DNA of 43,862 bases from assembly GCA_019240115.1 (NCBI GenBank), contig JAFAYV010000049.1, forward strand, positions 1 to 43,862, given 5' to 3'. Of this stretch, positions 15,478 to 23,264 are shown piece after piece (positions within the stretch are counted from its first letter, which is position 1; each line of letters starts with the position of its first letter). Origin of the DNA: Solirubrobacterales bacterium (GTDB lineage: Bacteria > Actinomycetota > Thermoleophilia > Solirubrobacterales > Solirubrobacteraceae). The position numbers were made by a program, and so were the translations under genes. A model generated the notes under the pieces. It ran no database searches, was not told the origin of the DNA, and was given only the letters and a program-made list of their open reading frames with translations.

Positions 15478-16518
15478 CTAGATACCGCCGACCGCGCTCT
15501 TGGCAGCCTTGAGCACGATCTTCGGGATCGGCGCGAAGTCCAGCGATGCGCCGAAGTGCTGACCCGTGGTCAGGTCGTAGTTGATGAACTGCCGCAGCAA
15601 CCCGGCCTGCTTGGCGCCCTGAGGGGCGATCACGTAGGTGAACGTCGAGATCGGGTAGGCGATCTTCGCGCTCTTGGGTGGGTCGACGATGTGCAGCGCG
15701 TTGCCGGCCGGCACCTGCTTGACCGTCTGCGCGGCATTCTCGATGTTGGCGAGGTTCGGGTACTCGAACTTGCCGGCCTGGTTCTGGATCGCGACCGCCG
15801 GGATCTTGTGGGCGATCAGGTAGGAGACCGCGATGTAGGCGATGCCGCCGCTGGTGGACTGCAGCGCGGCGGTCACCCCGGAGTTGCCCTTCTGGCCGAC
15901 GCCGGTGGGAAACTGCACCGAGGTCGCGAAGTTGACCTTGCTCCTCCAGGTGCCGCTGACGTCGGAGAGGTAATTGGTGAACGCGTAGGTGTCACCTGAC
16001 CCGTCGCTGCGGTAGATCGGGGTGATCTTCAGGTTCGGCAGCCTGACGCCGGGGTTGAGCTTCTGGATCGCGGAGTTGTTCCACGTCGTGATCTGGCCGA
16101 GATAGATCTTGGCCAGCGTCGGACCGTTGAGCCGCAGCCGATTGCCGACGCCGGGCACGTTGTAGCCGACGCCGGTGGCCGACAGCGCCCACGGGATCTG
16201 CACGCAGCTGTGACATCCGGCCGCCTGGGTCGGCGTCAGCGGCGCGTCGGAGGCGCCGAAGTCGACCAGGCGCTGCGAGACGTCGGTGATCCCCGTCCCG
16301 GAGCCGACTGCCTGGTAGTTGACGGTGATACCGGTTCGAGTCTGGAATGCCGACGCCCACTCCTGCTCCAGCGGGGCGACGAGGGTGGAGCCGGCGCCGT
16401 TCAGCGTGCCCGTGGCCGCCGACGCGCTGGAGGCCAGCGCCGCCGAACCGCCAGTGGCCGCGACGGCCGCAAGTGCCAGCGGAAGCATCGTCCGCCGATT
16501 CAAGGCCAAGCCTTTCAA
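15478..16518 (-). CDS. pstS: Phosphate ABC transporter substrate-binding protein PstS
   Basis: Extracytoplasmic phosphate-binding protein feeding the PstCAB importer. 346 residues; signal peptide of about 34 residues ending ASSASAA, cleaved by signal peptidase I rather than lipid-anchored. Phosphate-site motifs: LNGAGSTLVAPLEQEW, VGSGTGITDVSQRLVDFGAS (the GSG loop and Asp) and RSDGSGDTYAFTNYL. The best start is TTG at 16518, with GAAAGG upstream at good spacing; it gives a proper signal peptide. It is transcribed divergently from pstCAB across a 169-bp gap with a PHO-box-like array. In most actinobacteria pstS is first in the same operon. Confidence 0.94.
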   Translation of the reverse strand: MKGLALNRRTMLPLALAAVAATGGSAALASSASAATGTLNGAGSTLVAPLEQEWASAFQTRTGITVNYQAVGSGTGITDVSQRLVDFGASDAPLTPTQAAGCHSCVQIPWALSATGVGYNVPGVGNRLRLNGPTLAKIYLGQITTWNNSAIQKLNPGVRLPNLKITPIYRSDGSGDTYAFTNYLSDVSGTWRSKVNFATSVQFPTGVGQKGNSGVTAALQSTSGGIAYIAVSYLIAHKIPAVAIQNQAGKFEYPNLANIENAAQTVKQVPAGNALHIVDPPKSAKIAYPISTFTYVIAPQGAKQAGLLRQFINYDLTTGQHFGASLDFAPIPKIVLKAAKSAVGGI

Positions 16519-16602: not shown

Positions 16603-16646
16603 CGACTTGTGACTGCGGCGTGATCAACTTTTGTCAAGGTTGTGAC
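16603..16646. promoter_or_regulatory. PHO-box-like array: four 11-bp direct repeats
   Basis: Four consecutive 11-bp units (16603-16613, 16614-16624, 16625-16635, 16636-16646) read CGACTTGTGAC, TGCGGCGTGAT, CAACTTTTGTC and AAGGTTGTGAC. The consensus end is TTGTGAC. Phased 11-bp direct repeats are the known layout of PhoB/PhoP binding sites. The array sits between divergent pstS and pstCAB, about 26 bp before the pstC -10, so it could activate both under phosphate limitation. Binding is inferred. Confidence 0.65.
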
Positions 16647-16687: not shown

Positions 16688-17662
16688 ATGTCGGTCCGCG
16701 CCTCGCTGAATCCACGGGCGGCGGCGCGCGGGCGCGTCGCGATGGAGGGCAGCCTCGGCGACCGGATCCTCCGCGGGCTGTGCATCGCGGCGGGCCTCCT
16801 GGCGGGCGGCACGCTGCTGGCCGTCGCCTACCAGGTGATCAGCGGCGCGCGGCTGTCGATCTCCACGTTCGGGCTGCCGTTCCTCGTCCACAGCGCGTGG
16901 GCCCCCAACCTCGGCCACTTCGGCGCGGCCGTGATGCTCTACGGCACCGCGGTCAGCTCCGCGATCGCGCTGCTGATCTCGACGCCGGTGGCGATCGCGA
17001 TCGCGATCTACCTGAGCATGCTGGCGCCGCGGGCGGTGCGCATCGTGGTCGGCCCGCTGGTGGAGATGCTCGCCGCGATCCCCAGCGTCATCCTGGGCCT
17101 CTGGGGGATCATCGTGCTCGCCCCGTTCATGCAGCGCCACGTCGAGCCGGCGCTGCACGGCGTCCTGGGCTTCATCCCGATCTTCGGCCCGGCGCAGACG
17201 ACCGGGCTGGGCGTGTTCACCGCGGGGGTGATCCTGACCGTGATGGTCGTGCCGATCATCGCGTCGCTGAGCCGCGACCTGTTCCTCAGCGTCCCGCGGG
17301 AGCTGACCGACGCCGCCGAGTCCGTGGGCGCGACGCGGTGGGAGGTGATCCGCGGCGTCGTGCTCCCCACCACCGTGTCGGGGGTCAGCGCCGCGATCAT
17401 GCTCGGGCTCGGGCGGGCACTCGGCGAGGCGATCGCGGTCGCCTCGGTGATCGGCGCGGGCAACGTCGTCCACGTCAGCACGTTTGAGACCGGCAACAGC
17501 CTGGCGGCGCGGATCGCGCTGGACTTCGCCTACATCGTCTCCAACCTGCACACCGCCTCGCTGTTCTACCTCGCGCTGATCCTGCTCGTGTTCGGCCTGC
17601 TCACGAATCTGATCGCCCGTCAGATCGCCTCCCGCTATGACGTCCACCGCACCTTCGCCTGA
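16688..17662 (+). CDS. pstC: Phosphate ABC transporter permease PstC
   Basis: One of two membrane subunits forming the phosphate channel. 324 residues with about six helices. The ABC-permease coupling loop is ELTDAAESVGATRWEVIRGV (EAA motif with conserved Gly), followed by VLPTTVSGVSAAIMLGLGRA and LGEAIAVASVIG, typical of PstC. The first roughly 20 residues (SVRASLNPRAAARGR) are basic and cytosolic. The ATG at 16688 follows TACCCT; MEGSLGD at residue 19 is an alternative start. It overlaps pstA by 26 bp, indicating tight translational coupling. Confidence 0.94.
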   Translation: MSVRASLNPRAAARGRVAMEGSLGDRILRGLCIAAGLLAGGTLLAVAYQVISGARLSISTFGLPFLVHSAWAPNLGHFGAAVMLYGTAVSSAIALLISTPVAIAIAIYLSMLAPRAVRIVVGPLVEMLAAIPSVILGLWGIIVLAPFMQRHVEPALHGVLGFIPIFGPAQTTGLGVFTAGVILTVMVVPIIASLSRDLFLSVPRELTDAAESVGATRWEVIRGVVLPTTVSGVSAAIMLGLGRALGEAIAVASVIGAGNVVHVSTFETGNSLAARIALDFAYIVSNLHTASLFYLALILLVFGLLTNLIARQIASRYDVHRTFA

Positions 17663-18566
17663 GCTGCAACCGGGTGCCTACGACCCGACCTCGCCGCTGG
17701 TGGCGAGCGGCAACCTGCGCCGGCGCGAGGCGGTGAGCCGCGCGATCTCGGGGTTGGCCACGGCCTCCTCGCTGGTCGCGGTGGCCGCCCTGGTGATCGT
17801 CACGGTCGCGGTCGTCCGCCACGGCGCCGGCGCGCTGAGCTTGAGCTTTCTGGTGAAGGACCCGCCCCAGTTCGGCGGCCCGGGCGGCGGGATCGCCTCG
17901 GCGATCGTCGGCACGTCGTTGATCGTCGCCATGGCCGCGATCATCGCCACCCCGGTCGGGGTGCTGTGCGCGCTCTACCTCGTCGAGTTCTCGGCCCCGG
18001 GCTCGCGTCCGGCGCGCGCGATGCGGCTCGCCCTGGACCTGATGCAGGGCCTGCCGACGGTCGTCGTGGGCCTGTTCATCTTCGGCCTCGTGGTCAAGCC
18101 GGCGCAGGCCGAGTCGGGCTTCGCCGGCTCGCTGGCGCTCGCGATCATCATGCTGCCCCTGATCGCCCGGTCCTCCCAGGAGGTGCTCCTGACCGTGCCC
18201 CGCGGGCTGCGCGACGGGACCGACGCGCTCGGCGTCGATCGCTGGCGGGCGATCATGACCGTGATCCTGCCCACGGCCCTCGGCGGGATCCTCACCGGGA
18301 CGATCCTCGCCGTGGCGCGCGCCGCCGGAGAGACCGCGCCGCTGCTGTTGATCGACGGCGCCTTTACGCCGGGGACGACGGTGCAGCTGTTCGGCCACGC
18401 GGTGCCCAACATCCCGGTGCTGATCTTCACCGCGGTCGAGTCCGCCGACCCCAGCGCCTTCGCCCGCGCCTGGGGCGCCGCGCTCGTCCTGCTCGCGCTC
18501 ATCCTGATCGCCAACGTCGGCGCGCGCGTGCTGCTGGCCCGCAGCCGTGCGAGGATGGGATTGTGA
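17637..18566 (+). CDS. pstA: Phosphate ABC transporter permease PstA
   Basis: Second membrane subunit of the phosphate importer, 309 residues, about six helices. It shows the PstA features [20 protein letters not shown], the periplasmic entrance loop, and the coupling segment [20 protein letters not shown] followed by [20 protein letters not shown] and AGETAPLL. It starts inside pstC and ends overlapping the pstB GTG by four bases (GTGA), so pstC, pstA and pstB form one coupled operon. Confidence 0.94.
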
Positions 18567-19438
18567 GCTCGTCCGGCGGCGACGCCATCCGCCCGCGCGT
18601 CCGGATCCAGGACGGGTCGGCCTCCCGCCCGGTCCCGGCCGCGCAGCGGAACGACAACGGGGGAACACGACGCGCGGCCGTGTTCGACATCCGGGACATG
18701 TCGGTGCACTACGGCGAGAACCGAGCGCTCGACTGGACGACGCTGCGGATCGACCGCAACCTCGTGACCGCGGTCATCGGGCCCTCGGGGTGCGGCAAGT
18801 CGACGTTCATCCGCAGCCTGAACCGGATGAACGACTCGATCCCCGGATTTCGCATCGGCGGGCAAGTCCTCTACCACGGCCACGACCTGTACGCGCGTCA
18901 GACCAATCGCGTCGAGGTCCGGCGGCGCATCGGGATGGTCTTCCAGAAGCCCAACCCATTCCCGAAGTCGATCTACGACAACGTCGCCTGGGCCCCGCGC
19001 AACCTCGGGATGAAGTCCGGCCTCGACGAGCGCGTCGAGCGCGCGCTGCGCCACGCCGCGATCTGGGACGAGGTCAAGGATCGGCTTCGCGCCTCGGCGC
19101 TCAGCCTCTCGGGCGGTCAGCAGCAGCGCCTGTGCATCGCCCGCTCGATCGCCGTCGAGCCCGACGTGCTGCTCCTCGACGAGCCGGCCTCAGCGCTCGA
19201 TCCGGTCGCGACGGCCGCGATCGAGGACCTGATGCACAACCTCAAGCACCGGTACACGATCGTCATCGTCACCCACAACATGCAGCAGGCGGCGCGCGTC
19301 GCCGACCGCACGGCGTTCTTCTCGCTCGACGAGCGCGATCGCACCGGCACGCTCGTCGAGTACGGCGACACCGACACGATCTTCACCAACCCGGCCGATC
19401 CTCGAACGCGCGACTACGTGACCGGCCGCTTCGGATAG
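18563..19438 (+). CDS. pstB: Phosphate ABC transporter ATP-binding protein PstB
   Basis: ATPase driving phosphate import, 291 residues. Walker [10 protein letters not shown] (about 73-81), Q-loop region [20 protein letters not shown], signature LSGGQQQR (about 182-189), Walker [14 protein letters not shown] and the switch His in [17 protein letters not shown]. The C-terminus ([20 protein letters not shown]) is typical of PstB. The GTG at 18563 overlaps the pstA stop; it gives a 40-residue polar N-terminal extension before [12 protein letters not shown], longer than usual, so a later start is possible though none has better context. No phoU follows, although phoU normally ends the operon; the next gene is on the opposite strand 8 bp away. 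Confidence 0.94.
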
Positions 19439-19446
19439 CCCGGCGA

Positions 19447-19863
19447 TCAGCCGCCGATCGTGTCCGAGGACACCTGGGGCAGGAGTGGCTGGCCGCACTG
19501 CCAGCAGAACGACGCGCCGGTGCTGTGCGGCGAGCCGCACGACGGGCAGACGCCGGCGGTGCCGGTCTCCTCGAGCCGCAGGATCCGCTCGACCTCACCG
19601 AGTTCGGCGTCGGCCTCCTGGAGCACGGCGACGCGCCTCACGAGCACGTTGACGCGGATCTGGTCGCGGATGGCCATCTCGTAGACGAGCCCGCCGAGGT
19701 CCCATTGCAGCTCGGCCACGCGCGCGGTCAGCTGATCGCGGCGCCGTCGCAGGTCGAAGGTGCGTTCGTCGTCGATCCGCGTGCTCGCCGTCAGCGGCGG
19801 CGACGAACCGTCGGAGCCCGCCGCGCCGTCGCGCCGGTTGCGCCGCAGACCCGGGATCGTCAC
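19447..19863 (-). CDS. Coiled-coil protein with C-terminal zinc ribbon
   Basis: 138 residues, no membrane segment. The N-terminus is basic (PGLRRNRRDGAAGSDG). A long helix about residues 35-100 (FDLRRRRDQLTARVAELQWD; LQEADAELGEVERILRLEE) probably forms a coiled coil. The end is a zinc ribbon, CPSCGSPHSTGASFCWQCGQ, with two CxxC knuckles. The GTG start overlaps the stop of the upstream zinc-ribbon gene (GTGA), so it is the second gene of a two-gene operon. Function unknown; an adaptor role beside its partner is inference. Confidence 0.75.
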   Translation of the reverse strand: MTIPGLRRNRRDGAAGSDGSSPPLTASTRIDDERTFDLRRRRDQLTARVAELQWDLGGLVYEMAIRDQIRVNVLVRRVAVLQEADAELGEVERILRLEETGTAGVCPSCGSPHSTGASFCWQCGQPLLPQVSSDTIGG

Positions 19864-20501
19864 TGCCCGAAGAACGAGCCGTCGAACTTGCCGCTCTTCT
19901 TGTTGAACCCGGGGCCGTGGCCCTTCTGACCGACGGTCACCGTGGCCGGCGGCAGGTTCTTCTGGCTCGAGCCGAGCACCTTGCTCGCGGCGGACGATGC
20001 CTTGGCCGCCTGCTGGGCGGTCGGCTTGGACGAGTTCTTCTGCGCGTTCCGATGGCCGCGGGACTTGCCGGGCGACCTGCCGGCGCCCGAGCGCGCGCCC
20101 GAACCGGCGCTCGCCGCCGCGGTGGTCGCGCCGGCACCCGCGCCGGCGCCACCGACCGTGACGACCGTCGGGGACGCCGCCGCCAGCTGCTTCGGGGTGC
20201 TCGCCGTGTTGTGGCCGATCAGGACGCCGACGCCCATCGCGAGCAGGAGCGTACCGACGCCGGCGACCACCGTCGCGGGCGAGGAGGAGCGCGGCACCTT
20301 GGCGGGCGGCGGCGTGACCGTCGTGGGCGCCTCGGCCGCGGCCTCGCTCGGCGCCAGCGTGAACCGGGGCTTGCCGCGGCGCTCGCCGCAGCTGACGCAG
20401 TAGCGCTGCTCGCCCGACAGCGCGGCCCCGCAGTTGACGCAGCGATCGGCGCCGTCGACGAACGTCGGAGGCGGATTCCTGGGCGGGGTCTCGTCGGTCA
20501 T
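19860..20501 (-). CDS. Zinc-ribbon single-pass membrane protein
   Basis: 213 residues. N-terminal zinc ribbon CVNCGAALSGEQRYCVSCGE (about 21-40), then RRGKPRF, a Pro/Thr linker, one membrane helix (VVAGVGTLLLAMGVGVLIGH, about 79-98), and a long Ala/Gly/Ser/Lys-rich outer segment ending GFNKKSGKFDGSFFGQ. The ribbon should be cytosolic and the tail outside. The same ribbon-RRG-helix plan recurs in the divergent gene at 20637, so they look like paralogous anchors. The 135-bp gap between them holds a PHO-box-like repeat that could serve both. Function unknown. Confidence 0.75.
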   Translation of the reverse strand: MTDETPPRNPPPTFVDGADRCVNCGAALSGEQRYCVSCGERRGKPRFTLAPSEAAAEAPTTVTPPPAKVPRSSSPATVVAGVGTLLLAMGVGVLIGHNTASTPKQLAAASPTVVTVGGAGAGAGATTAAASAGSGARSGAGRSPGKSRGHRNAQKNSSKPTAQQAAKASSAASKVLGSSQKNLPPATVTVGQKGHGPGFNKKSGKFDGSFFGQ

Positions 20502-20554
20502 CTCGGGGCGCGGTCGCGGTCGTGCCGCGGGTAGCGTAGGACGGCCCTCGCGGT

Positions 20555-20576
20555 CCGGTTGTGACCACGTCGTGAC
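20555..20576. promoter_or_regulatory. PHO-box-like pair of 11-bp repeats
   Basis: Two adjacent 11-bp units, CCGGTTGTGAC (20555-20565) and CACGTCGTGAC (20566-20576), share the TGTGAC/CGTGAC end and the 11-bp phase of the array upstream of pstC; the first shares GGTTGTGAC with the last pst unit. About 12-14 bp downstream lies a possible -10 (GATATT/TATTCA, 20589-20596) for the gene at 20637. On the other strand TACGCT (20533-20538) could serve the zinc-ribbon operon. Confidence 0.55.
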
Positions 20577-20636
20577 CGACCCGCCCGAGATATTCACACG
20601 GGCGCGGGCCCGCAAGGAGACAATCCGGGACTCGTC

Positions 20637-22592
20637 ATGGCCTCCTCGACGACGCGGTGTGACTCGTGCTCGGCGCCGCTCGCCCACGATCAGCGCTACT
20701 GCCTGCGCTGCGGGACGCGTCGCGGTCCGCTGCCGGCGCAGATCGGCGTCCTGCTCGGCGAGATCCACGAGCTCGGCCGCGAGCGGCCGGGCTCGGGCGC
20801 GGAGCTGCTGGCTGGCGCGTTCGAGGCACCGGAGCCCGCTGCGGCCGACACCAACCTGTTCGGAACCGCTCGAGCCGCCGCCGTGGCGATTCTGCTGATG
20901 CTCGCCTTCGGCTGTGTCGTCGGCTCGTTCACGAGCCCCGGCGGCGTCGGCAGCCTCGCGCACGCGCTCGTCGTCGCGGTCTCTCCGCCTCCGGCCACCA
21001 CCGTCGCCAGTACGCCGGCGCCCGGCGGCGGCGGCGGCGGAGGCGGCGGAGGAGGCGGCGGCGGCGGAGGCAGCGCCGGCGCGCCGGCCACCGGCCCCGC
21101 GTCGACTCCCGGCGCCCGGCCGCCCACGCAGCGCACGATCACGGTCGGGTCCGGCGCCAGCGGGGGCGGCGGCCAAGGTGGGGGTGGCGGCGGCGGTTCG
21201 ACGACCACGACCTCGCCGTCCTCGACGAACCTGCTCGGGCTGCCGCCGATCAAGCATGTCTTCGTGATCATGCTCTCACAGCAGGGCTACGACCAGTCGT
21301 TCGCCACCAGCCATGGCCACGCCTACCTGTCCACGACGCTGCGGCGCCAGGGGGAGCTGATCGACGACTACTACGGCGTCGCCGCCTCGCCGCTGGCCAA
21401 CGCGGTGGCGCTGCTCAGCGGACAGGGACCCACCCCGCAGACGATCGCCGACTGCCCCATGTATCAGAGCGTCGAGCCGGGCAGCATCGGCCAGCTCGGC
21501 CAGGTCCAGGGGACCGGCTGCGTCTACCCCGCGACCGGAAAGACGCTGTTCGACCAGCTGACGGCCGCCAACCTGTCGTGGCGTGCCTACGTGCAGGGAA
21601 TCGAACGCGGGAGCTCTCACCTGGCAGCCGGCGCGTCGACGACCTCGACCTCCTCGACCTCCCAGACGGAGACGGCTCCGGCGACATTGACCGAGACGAG
21701 CTCCACGACCTCCGGATCGACGACCTCCGGATCCACGAGCTCCGGATCGACGACCACGACCTCGACCACGACCACGTCGACGACCCCGGCGCCGGTGCCG
21801 GCGCCGGCGCCGCCTGCGCCCTGCGCGCACCCCCAGCTGGGGGCCGCCGACACCCATCGGGCGGTCATCGGCAGCGACGCCTACGTGACCTGGCGCAATC
21901 CGGCCGTCTACTTTCTCTCGATCCTCGGCTCGGGCGACTGCGCCTCCGACGACGTCGGCCTGCCGCAGCTGGCCTCCGACCTCGCGTCGGCGAGCTCGAC
22001 GCCGGCGTTCTCCTACATCTCCCCCGACCCCTGTGACGACGGCGCCGATCAGCCGTGCGCGACCGGCAGGCCCTCCGGGCTGAAGGCGGCGGACGCCTTC
22101 CTGCGTCGGGTCGTGCCCGAGATCGAGCGCTCCGCCGCCTATCGCGCGGACGGTCTGATCGCGATCACGTTCGACGGGGCGCCCCAGACCGGCCCCCATG
22201 CCGACCCGACGAGCTGCTGCGACCAGCCCGCGTTCCCCAACCTGCCGCCGACGACGACCACCACCACCACGAGTACGAGCACCACGCCGTCGACCACCCC
22301 CGGGACGACCGCGACCTCGACGCCGACGGGCTCGACCACCACGGGCTCGACCACCACGGGCTCGACCACCACCCTCCCGTCGGGCACCAATCCGGGCGGC
22401 GGCCAGATCGGACTGCTGCTCATCTCGCGCTACGTCAAGCCGGGGACGGTCGACGCGGTCGACGCCTTCAACCACTTCTCGCTGCTGAAGTCGATCGAGG
22501 ATCTGTTCTCGCTGCAGCCCCTCGGCTACGCGCGCGACACCGCCCTTCCGGTGCTCGACGCGGCGATCTTCAACGCCGGCCCCCGCGGTTGA
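20637..22592 (+). CDS. Membrane-anchored zinc-ribbon protein with degenerate phosphoesterase fold
   Basis: 651 residues. Order: zinc ribbon with C8, C11, C22, C25; one membrane helix (about 78-98); poly-Gly linker (about 130-147); then an extracellular domain (about 202-651) like the acid phosphatase/phospholipase C phosphoesterase family. Family features retained are IKHVFVIML, ALLSGQGPTPQTIADCP, RNPAVYF, GLKAADAFLRRVVPEIE and FNHFSLLKSIEDLF (His613). Metal and active-site positions look replaced: the usual Glu-Asn is Ser214-Gln215, Thr/Gly/His-Ser is VAASP (248-252), CxDGHD is CDDGAD (466-471), and FDE is FDG (Gly514). Two Ser/Thr-rich insertions (about 330-395 and 538-582) interrupt the domain. 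The ATG has a distant AAGGAG, 18 nt away. A PHO-box-like repeat lies upstream. It may be a pseudoenzyme acting as sensor or binding protein; this is inference. Confidence 0.72.
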   Translation: MASSTTRCDSCSAPLAHDQRYCLRCGTRRGPLPAQIGVLLGEIHELGRERPGSGAELLAGAFEAPEPAAADTNLFGTARAAAVAILLMLAFGCVVGSFTSPGGVGSLAHALVVAVSPPPATTVASTPAPGGGGGGGGGGGGGGGGSAGAPATGPASTPGARPPTQRTITVGSGASGGGGQGGGGGGGSTTTTSPSSTNLLGLPPIKHVFVIMLSQQGYDQSFATSHGHAYLSTTLRRQGELIDDYYGVAASPLANAVALLSGQGPTPQTIADCPMYQSVEPGSIGQLGQVQGTGCVYPATGKTLFDQLTAANLSWRAYVQGIERGSSHLAAGASTTSTSSTSQTETAPATLTETSSTTSGSTTSGSTSSGSTTTTSTTTTSTTPAPVPAPAPPAPCAHPQLGAADTHRAVIGSDAYVTWRNPAVYFLSILGSGDCASDDVGLPQLASDLASASSTPAFSYISPDPCDDGADQPCATGRPSGLKAADAFLRRVVPEIERSAAYRADGLIAITFDGAPQTGPHADPTSCCDQPAFPNLPPTTTTTTTSTSTTPSTTPGTTATSTPTGSTTTGSTTTGSTTTLPSGTNPGGGQIGLLLISRYVKPGTVDAVDAFNHFSLLKSIEDLFSLQPLGYARDTALPVLDAAIFNAGPRG

Positions 22593-22697: not shown

Positions 22698-23264
22698 GTG
22701 AGGCGCATCCATCTCGCGGCCATCGCCGCGACCGGTCTGCTGACGGCCGGGTTGGTCACCATCCCGGCGTCGGCGTCCACGACGGCCCACAAGCCGCCGA
22801 AGACGAAGTCGAAGGTCGTCGCGATCACCACGAAGCTGAGCTGCCACCTCTCGCTGGCCACCGACATCCCGGCCGGCGACGTCACCGTCCCCCAGGGCGC
22901 GGCCTCGGGTCACCAGTCGGGCGCGGCCAGCTGCGGCGCGCCGCTGTTGCGCGGCGTTGAGACCAACTCGTTCACGGCGAATACCGCGGGCGACCTCGCC
23001 GGCACCTACTCGCAGTGGTTCAAGGCCGGCACGGTTTCCGGAACGTACGCGCTGACCCCGCAGAGCACCGGCCCGCCCTCGCCGACGAGCTTCGCCGCGA
23101 TCAGCTACACCGGGAAGATCTCGGTCACCGGCGGCAGCGGATTGCTGCGCCGGGCGGTCGGCGCCGGGACGCTGTCGTGCTCGAGCCCGGACGCCGCCCA
23201 CTTCGCCTGCACGGAGCGCCTGAAGCTGACCACCGTGCCGTTGACCATCGTCAGCAAGGGCTGA
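22698..23264 (+). CDS. Secreted protein, Thermoleophilia type, function unknown
   Basis: 188 residues. Clear Sec signal peptide (MRRIHLAAIAATGLLTAGLV to about residue 27, cleavage after PASASA-type site). The mature protein is Ser/Thr/Gly-rich, probably beta-structured, with four Cys (LSCHLS, ASCGAP, LSCSSP, FACTER) that could form two disulfides. Phrases such as AGDLAGTYSQWFKAGTVSGT and SFAAISYTGKISVTGGSG suggest a beta-barrel or sandwich like small secreted proteins of this lineage. The GTG start has AGGAG seven bases upstream. It stands alone, with an inverted repeat in its promoter region, and converges on the cyclophilin gene. Confidence 0.72.
   Translation: MRRIHLAAIAATGLLTAGLVTIPASASTTAHKPPKTKSKVVAITTKLSCHLSLATDIPAGDVTVPQGAASGHQSGAASCGAPLLRGVETNSFTANTAGDLAGTYSQWFKAGTVSGTYALTPQSTGPPSPTSFAAISYTGKISVTGGSGLLRRAVGAGTLSCSSPDAAHFACTERLKLTTVPLTIVSKG

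Follow-up and report, generated by a model that had tools for sequence, protein, structure and literature searches.

Why should a phosphate-transport locus carry, beneath a PHO-box-like site, a membrane-anchored phosphatase that seems unable to cut anything? The question is raised by a gene on contig JAFAYV010000049.1 of a Solirubrobacterales bacterium (GenBank assembly GCA_019240115.1), of which a stretch of 43,862 nucleotides, here called the window, was analyzed. A first-pass annotation of this DNA had described the product as a zinc ribbon, one membrane helix, a poly-Gly linker and a phosphoesterase fold, and had proposed that selection kept the fold and removed the chemistry, with a sensor, a binding protein or a scaffold as candidate roles. 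Judging by sequence comparison, the protein is indeed a conserved member of the AcpA/SapM-type fold without the residues needed for catalysis (hence pseudo-phosphoesterase). We put at roughly 0.6 the probability that it serves as a non-catalytic accessory of a ribbon-type, PhoU-less Pst transporter, under Pho control, tuning or reporting phosphate uptake.

The protein and its former active site

The gene is an open reading frame of 651 codons with an ATG start, on the plus strand, and its parts are as follows.

20637..22592, plus strand: the ribbon–helix–pseudo-phosphoesterase gene, 651 aa; open ATG frame with a PF04185 match, compared with 39 further pseudo-type homologues
20658..20711, plus strand: zinc ribbon (C8, C11, C22, C25), predicted cytosolic; from the sequence and weak Pfam ribbon matches
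20874..20930, plus strand: single membrane helix, about residues 80–98; from hydropathy, present in 35/37 homologues
21024..21071, plus strand: poly-Gly linker of 16 Gly, about residues 130–145; from the sequence
21237..22589, plus strand: pseudo-phosphoesterase domain, residues 201–651, with S214, Q215, P252, W419, R420, A470 and G514 as replacements and D513 kept; from alignments, the AlphaFold model and the AcpA match

The proposed architecture was borne out by the sequence, by Pfam and by structure prediction. The ribbon (C8-x2-C11-x10-C22-x2-C25) falls below the Pfam cut-offs when taken alone, and its cysteines are kept in 27/37 homologues. Residues 201–651 matched the PF04185 profile with 46 bits against a curated cut-off of 23, which places them in that family; NCBIfam profiles gave no match for the protein. 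Flexible Gly-rich and Thr-rich linkers are present. A whole-protein phmmer search against PDB sequences returned mostly antibody fragments, matched through the Gly linker, which we discarded as artefacts. From the topology, and from cysteines common to secreted relatives, we infer that the ribbon would lie inside the cell and the phosphoesterase domain outside.

AlphaFold, run on the protein with 24 aligned sequences, gave a confident core (predicted local distance difference test, pLDDT, mostly >90) with disordered Thr/Ser-rich inserts. The best PDB match of this model was AcpA (2d1g; VIA-align Z 30.1, root-mean-square deviation 2.8, 294 residues), and a control model of an intact relative (L023) matched the same structure with Z 29.1. 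As modeled, then, the alkaline-phosphatase-superfamily fold is retained.

The chemistry appears to have fared otherwise. Mutagenesis of SapM showed that E59, N60, S95, H160, H204, D238 and E239 are each required and that K159 contributes, and the catalytic set of AcpA comprises E43, N44, S175, H106, H287, H288, H350, D386 and D387 (PMC6635428). A profile alignment to AcpA sets E43-N44, H287-H288, H350 and D386-D387 opposite the matching motifs, while the nucleophile column was positioned via the family alignment. At these places the protein reads S214-Q215, V248-A-A-S-P252, W419-R420-N421-P422, C466-D-D-G-A470-D and D513-G514, with H613 further on; the residue numbers of the first-pass annotation were correct. 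The Glu-Asn metal ligands of strand 1 have become S214-Q215; the Ser/Thr nucleophile (S95 of SapM, S175 of AcpA) has become P252; the basic-His pair is W419-R420, so that R420 replaces the substrate histidine H160 of SapM; the second substrate histidine (H204) is A470; and the Asp-Glu/Asp metal ligands of the late strand read D513-G514. Six essential catalytic residues are gone, D513 being the sole survivor, and neither the metal ligands nor the nucleophile nor the substrate histidines of an active AcpA/SapM-type enzyme are in place.

Two details of the earlier description need adjusting. The RHNP motif is altered, as had been said, but an ungapped alignment gives WRNP, with Arg420 in the place of the His and Trp419 in that of the preceding Arg/Lys. 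Likewise, the fold is kept and His613 does remain (in 30/35 pseudo-members), but its retention says little about catalysis, because AcpA has an Asn there. Ser251, the only Ser near Pro252, was considered as a shifted nucleophile and rejected, not being conserved in homologues. Catalytic residues supplied from elsewhere, a possibility that the annotation had set against its own proposal, were not found at other aligned positions of the protein, its family and AcpA.

Conservation among relatives

The first 128 residues of the phosphoesterase domain, used as query, found the gene again in relatives. Among 84,980 species genomes scanned, 37 loci were recovered, almost all of them under a Solirubrobacterales or Actinomycetota label. 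Residue counts refer to 40 pseudo-type sequences, or fewer where a column was uncovered. All 40 have Ser, Gly or Ala in place of the first metal Glu, and all 40 have Ala in place of the nucleophile-loop Asp; the basic residue (Arg) has turned into Trp in 72%. Arg occupies the position of the first His in 31/37 (84%) and His in none, nor does any sequence have His at the second substrate position. At the position of the final acidic ligand, 27/36 (75%) have Gln and 3 have Glu. The nucleophile column, which holds Ser in 2/40 and Thr in none, is variable, and this variability, together with the conserved replacements, argues that the active site was remodeled, not merely lost.

The metal Glu-Asn pair is kept in all 19 paralogues compared, from relatives and from the same genome, and the 16 nearest of these, including a paralogue on contig 91 of the same genome, keep the remaining catalytic positions wherever covered. 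Strong matches outside Solirubrobacterales (L119, L121, L124), as well as L122, were of the active type and had no ribbon. The pseudo-type proteins form one branch of the tree on a short stem (bootstrap 97; Shimodaira–Hasegawa-like approximate likelihood ratio test 75; both support values are rough). Pairwise ratios of nonsynonymous to synonymous substitution (dN/dS) among close members were 0.25–0.40, loose linkers included, indicating purifying selection. With replacements common to orthologues across the order, and a fold predicted to be retained, these values agree with the proposal that the fold stayed under selection as the chemistry was removed; decay of this copy alone, the other outcome that had been set against that proposal, is not what the orthologues display.

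One further ribbon–helix protein (L123, G081 contig 12), encoded near a ccrib gene (described below) and pst copies, has a phosphoesterase domain that is even more degraded. The genome of the window also encodes two more PF04185 proteins (L010 2119–4995 and L011 2017–4515) with long extra regions that, by eye, resemble beta-propeller-type repeats.

The pst locus and its promoter

The pseudo-phosphoesterase gene stands divergent from two ribbon genes at the end of a set of pst genes. We call these two zrTM and ccrib and, with the pseudo-phosphoesterase, the ribbon trio.

15478..16518, minus strand: pstS, divergent from pstC; PBP_like_2
16608..16625, minus strand: PHO-box-like repeat of lower score in the pstS–pstC intergenic region, GATCACGCCGCAGTCACA; 11 of 14, which by itself is not significant
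16688..17662, plus strand: pstC; BPD_transp_1
17637..18566, plus strand: pstA; BPD_transp_1
18563..19438, plus strand: pstB, linked to the trio; ABC_tran
19447..19863, minus strand: ccrib, a coiled coil with a C-terminal zinc ribbon; Zn_Ribbon_1 25.6 bits, alignment of 53
19860..20501, minus strand: zrTM, a ribbon and membrane-helix protein of 213 aa; present at orthologous loci
20560..20577, minus strand: direct repeat GGTCAC-N5-GGTCAC resembling a PHO box, GGTCACgacgtGGTCACaacc, in the promoter region between the divergent genes; score 13 of 14, above chance

The order is thus pstS (minus), pstCAB (plus), ccrib (minus) and zrTM (minus), followed by the pseudo-phosphoesterase. Both divergent ribbon genes noticed earlier are real, and the overlap of the zrTM stop with the likely GTG start of ccrib, as GTGA, suggests one transcript. 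This arrangement is repeated across the order: ccrib is present in 32/32 loci with enough upstream sequence (of the 37), and pstB lies on the fetched stretch in 26 of the 37. A second arrangement has zrTM and/or ccrib co-directional with the pseudo-phosphoesterase, sometimes away from pst (L070, L071, L073, L081), and still keeps the trio together. The best hint that ccrib and the pseudo-phosphoesterase work together is a 603-aa open frame (L080, CAJCHW010000116.1) in which the ccrib coiled coil is joined in frame to the helix and the pseudo-domain, replacing the ribbon.

The record holding L079 and L080, Chlamydiae bacterium BOG_genome_mining.142, has Solirubrobacterales gene order and proteins and is probably mislabelled or a mixed bin. 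The zrTM proteins, in the window and in homologues, share a conserved C-terminal GxGYxxGKFTGNFFGE-like motif, presumed to lie on the outer side. A secreted protein encoded downstream (22698–23264) has relatives that adjoin pstS elsewhere (e.g., L058, L062, L066, L069) and may belong to the neighborhood.

The canonical PHO box consists of two 11-nt units, with a core GTTCACC in Streptomyces (PMC4415409). All repeats were scored by one scheme, in which the last unit position was allowed as A after the target had been inspected. For the 26 shared promoter regions, dinucleotide shuffles predict 0.6 with a score of at least 12 of 14 and 0.025 with at least 13; the observed numbers were 14 and 7. 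In arbitrary 320-nt tiles of such loci a score of 12 was reached in 5% and of 13 in 1.4%, rates low enough that the promoter excess holds against this control too. The pstS–pstC regions were also enriched (8/21 vs 0.5 expected). The PHO-box-like site is therefore real and above chance, and the promoter carries the direct repeats with an 11-nt period expected of a Pho regulon member. The proposed control by Pho is backed by the statistics of these repeats and, more strongly, by the fixed pst linkage.

No phoU was found beside pstB at the ribbon-type loci, either here or in the orthologous copies; where phoU occurred on the same stretch (L079, L108, L110), it adjoined another pst copy. The genome of the window has a canonical pstSCAB-phoU set on another contig (G000 contig 52, L115 2255–6864) with a histidine kinase gene nearby (L115 8303–9892, minus strand). 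Since phoU is seen only beside the other copy, the Pst of the window is a second, PhoU-less system.

Possible roles and comparison with known systems

These observations suggest that in these soil actinobacteria a phosphatase-shaped protein was repurposed to bind or relay during phosphate use, not to cut. As an accessory of the transporter, its tethered outer domain would bind phosphate or a phosphorylated ligand, or dock on the outer face of PstS/PstCA, while its cytosolic ribbon would meet zrTM and ccrib. The latter two may act near PstB, where PhoU acts in the canonical system, and the assembly would report or tune phosphate uptake in place of phosphoester hydrolysis.

Several facts weigh against this accessory role. 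At L070, with full flanks, there is no pst within 10 kb. Some genomes have pst-zrTM-ccrib with no pseudo-phosphoesterase at that place, so the latter is not essential to the transporter; in five such loci no swapped receptor domain was seen, an aldehyde dehydrogenase-like protein and a secreted protein (named from sequence) standing there instead. About one-quarter of the homologues lack the ribbon, and a ribbon-based relay can therefore not be universal. Finally, few columns of the domain vary as much as the nucleophile column, which disfavors a conserved ligand contact there.

We regard as possible, though tentatively, that the trio reads Pst in a PhoU-independent way, the dead outer domain being a receptor for phosphate or a phosphoester that would signal across the membrane to a hub of ribbons and coiled coil in the cytosol, at PstB. 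It is rather doubtful that the protein simply binds a phosphorylated polymer or lipid outside the cell (wall polymer, phospholipid, polyphosphate or organic phosphorus), feeding secreted phosphatases and Pst with no signaling. The fold is that of enzymes acting on phosphoesters and phospholipids, an Arg is conserved at the former substrate-His position, the flexible Gly/Thr-rich linkers recall wall-spanning proteins, and the Pst linkage would fit as well; yet such a binder leaves the cytosolic ribbon, the fusion with an otherwise soluble coiled coil and the constant zrTM and ccrib neighbors unexplained. A pure scaffold, a fold kept for protein–protein contact (e.g., holding the transporter or zrTM) with no small ligand, would account for the lost metal ligands, the variable nucleophile column and the conserved scaffold residues and cysteines, but we consider it unlikely, as the clade-specific Trp, Arg, Gln and Ala at former active-site positions exceed what a scaffold needs.

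That the protein is still an enzyme, with catalytic residues moved or a changed mechanism, seems highly improbable. Asp513 and His613 are kept, three homologues have Glu at the last metal position and two have Ser in the nucleophile column; against this, the strand-1 metal Glu is absent from every sequence, SapM mutants of each such residue are inactive (PMC6635428), and the clade-specific positions offer no alternative conserved set of Ser, Thr, His or Glu. A decaying secreted-phosphatase copy heading for loss, although it would explain the many catalytic substitutions and the absence from some relatives, is hardly credible given substitutions common to 40 homologues across families, the dN/dS values and the conserved locus.

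PF04185 enzymes and pseudoenzymes are already known kinds. In the open-access literature searched we found no ribbon-anchored, pst-linked PF04185 pseudo-member and, within incomplete coverage, no description of an extracytoplasmic alkaline phosphatase superfamily pseudoenzyme of this kind, of which the present protein would be a clear bacterial case. The eukaryotic pseudophosphatases STYX and PTPRU offer an analogy, having kept a fold and lost its chemistry for a presumably regulatory role; their fold is unrelated and there is no homology.

SapM of M. tuberculosis and AcpA of Francisella share with the pseudo-phosphoesterase the fold, the motif order and alignable catalytic positions; unlike them, it has a membrane anchor and a ribbon, and it has lost the nucleophile, both substrate histidines and, of the metal ligands, the Glu, the Asn and the final acidic residue. 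Its nearest relatives, the secreted PF04185 enzymes of Solirubrobacterales (L023 and the contig 91 paralogue; 40–46% identity over the domain), have its cysteines in common, but in them the catalytic residues are intact and the ribbon is absent. There is continuing debate over how Pst transporters signal the supply of phosphate, with PhoU commonly given the central part. The locus resembles Pst–PhoU signaling systems in its pstSCAB linkage and PHO-box-like promoter repeats, and differs in having no phoU and in placing ribbon proteins in the accessory positions. If the ribbon trio forms a phosphate-reading device, it would be a different solution to the problem of reporting phosphate supply, and one that is testable in cultured hosts of the pseudo-phosphoesterase such as Conexibacter sp. 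DBS9H8 and Paraconexibacter antarcticus.
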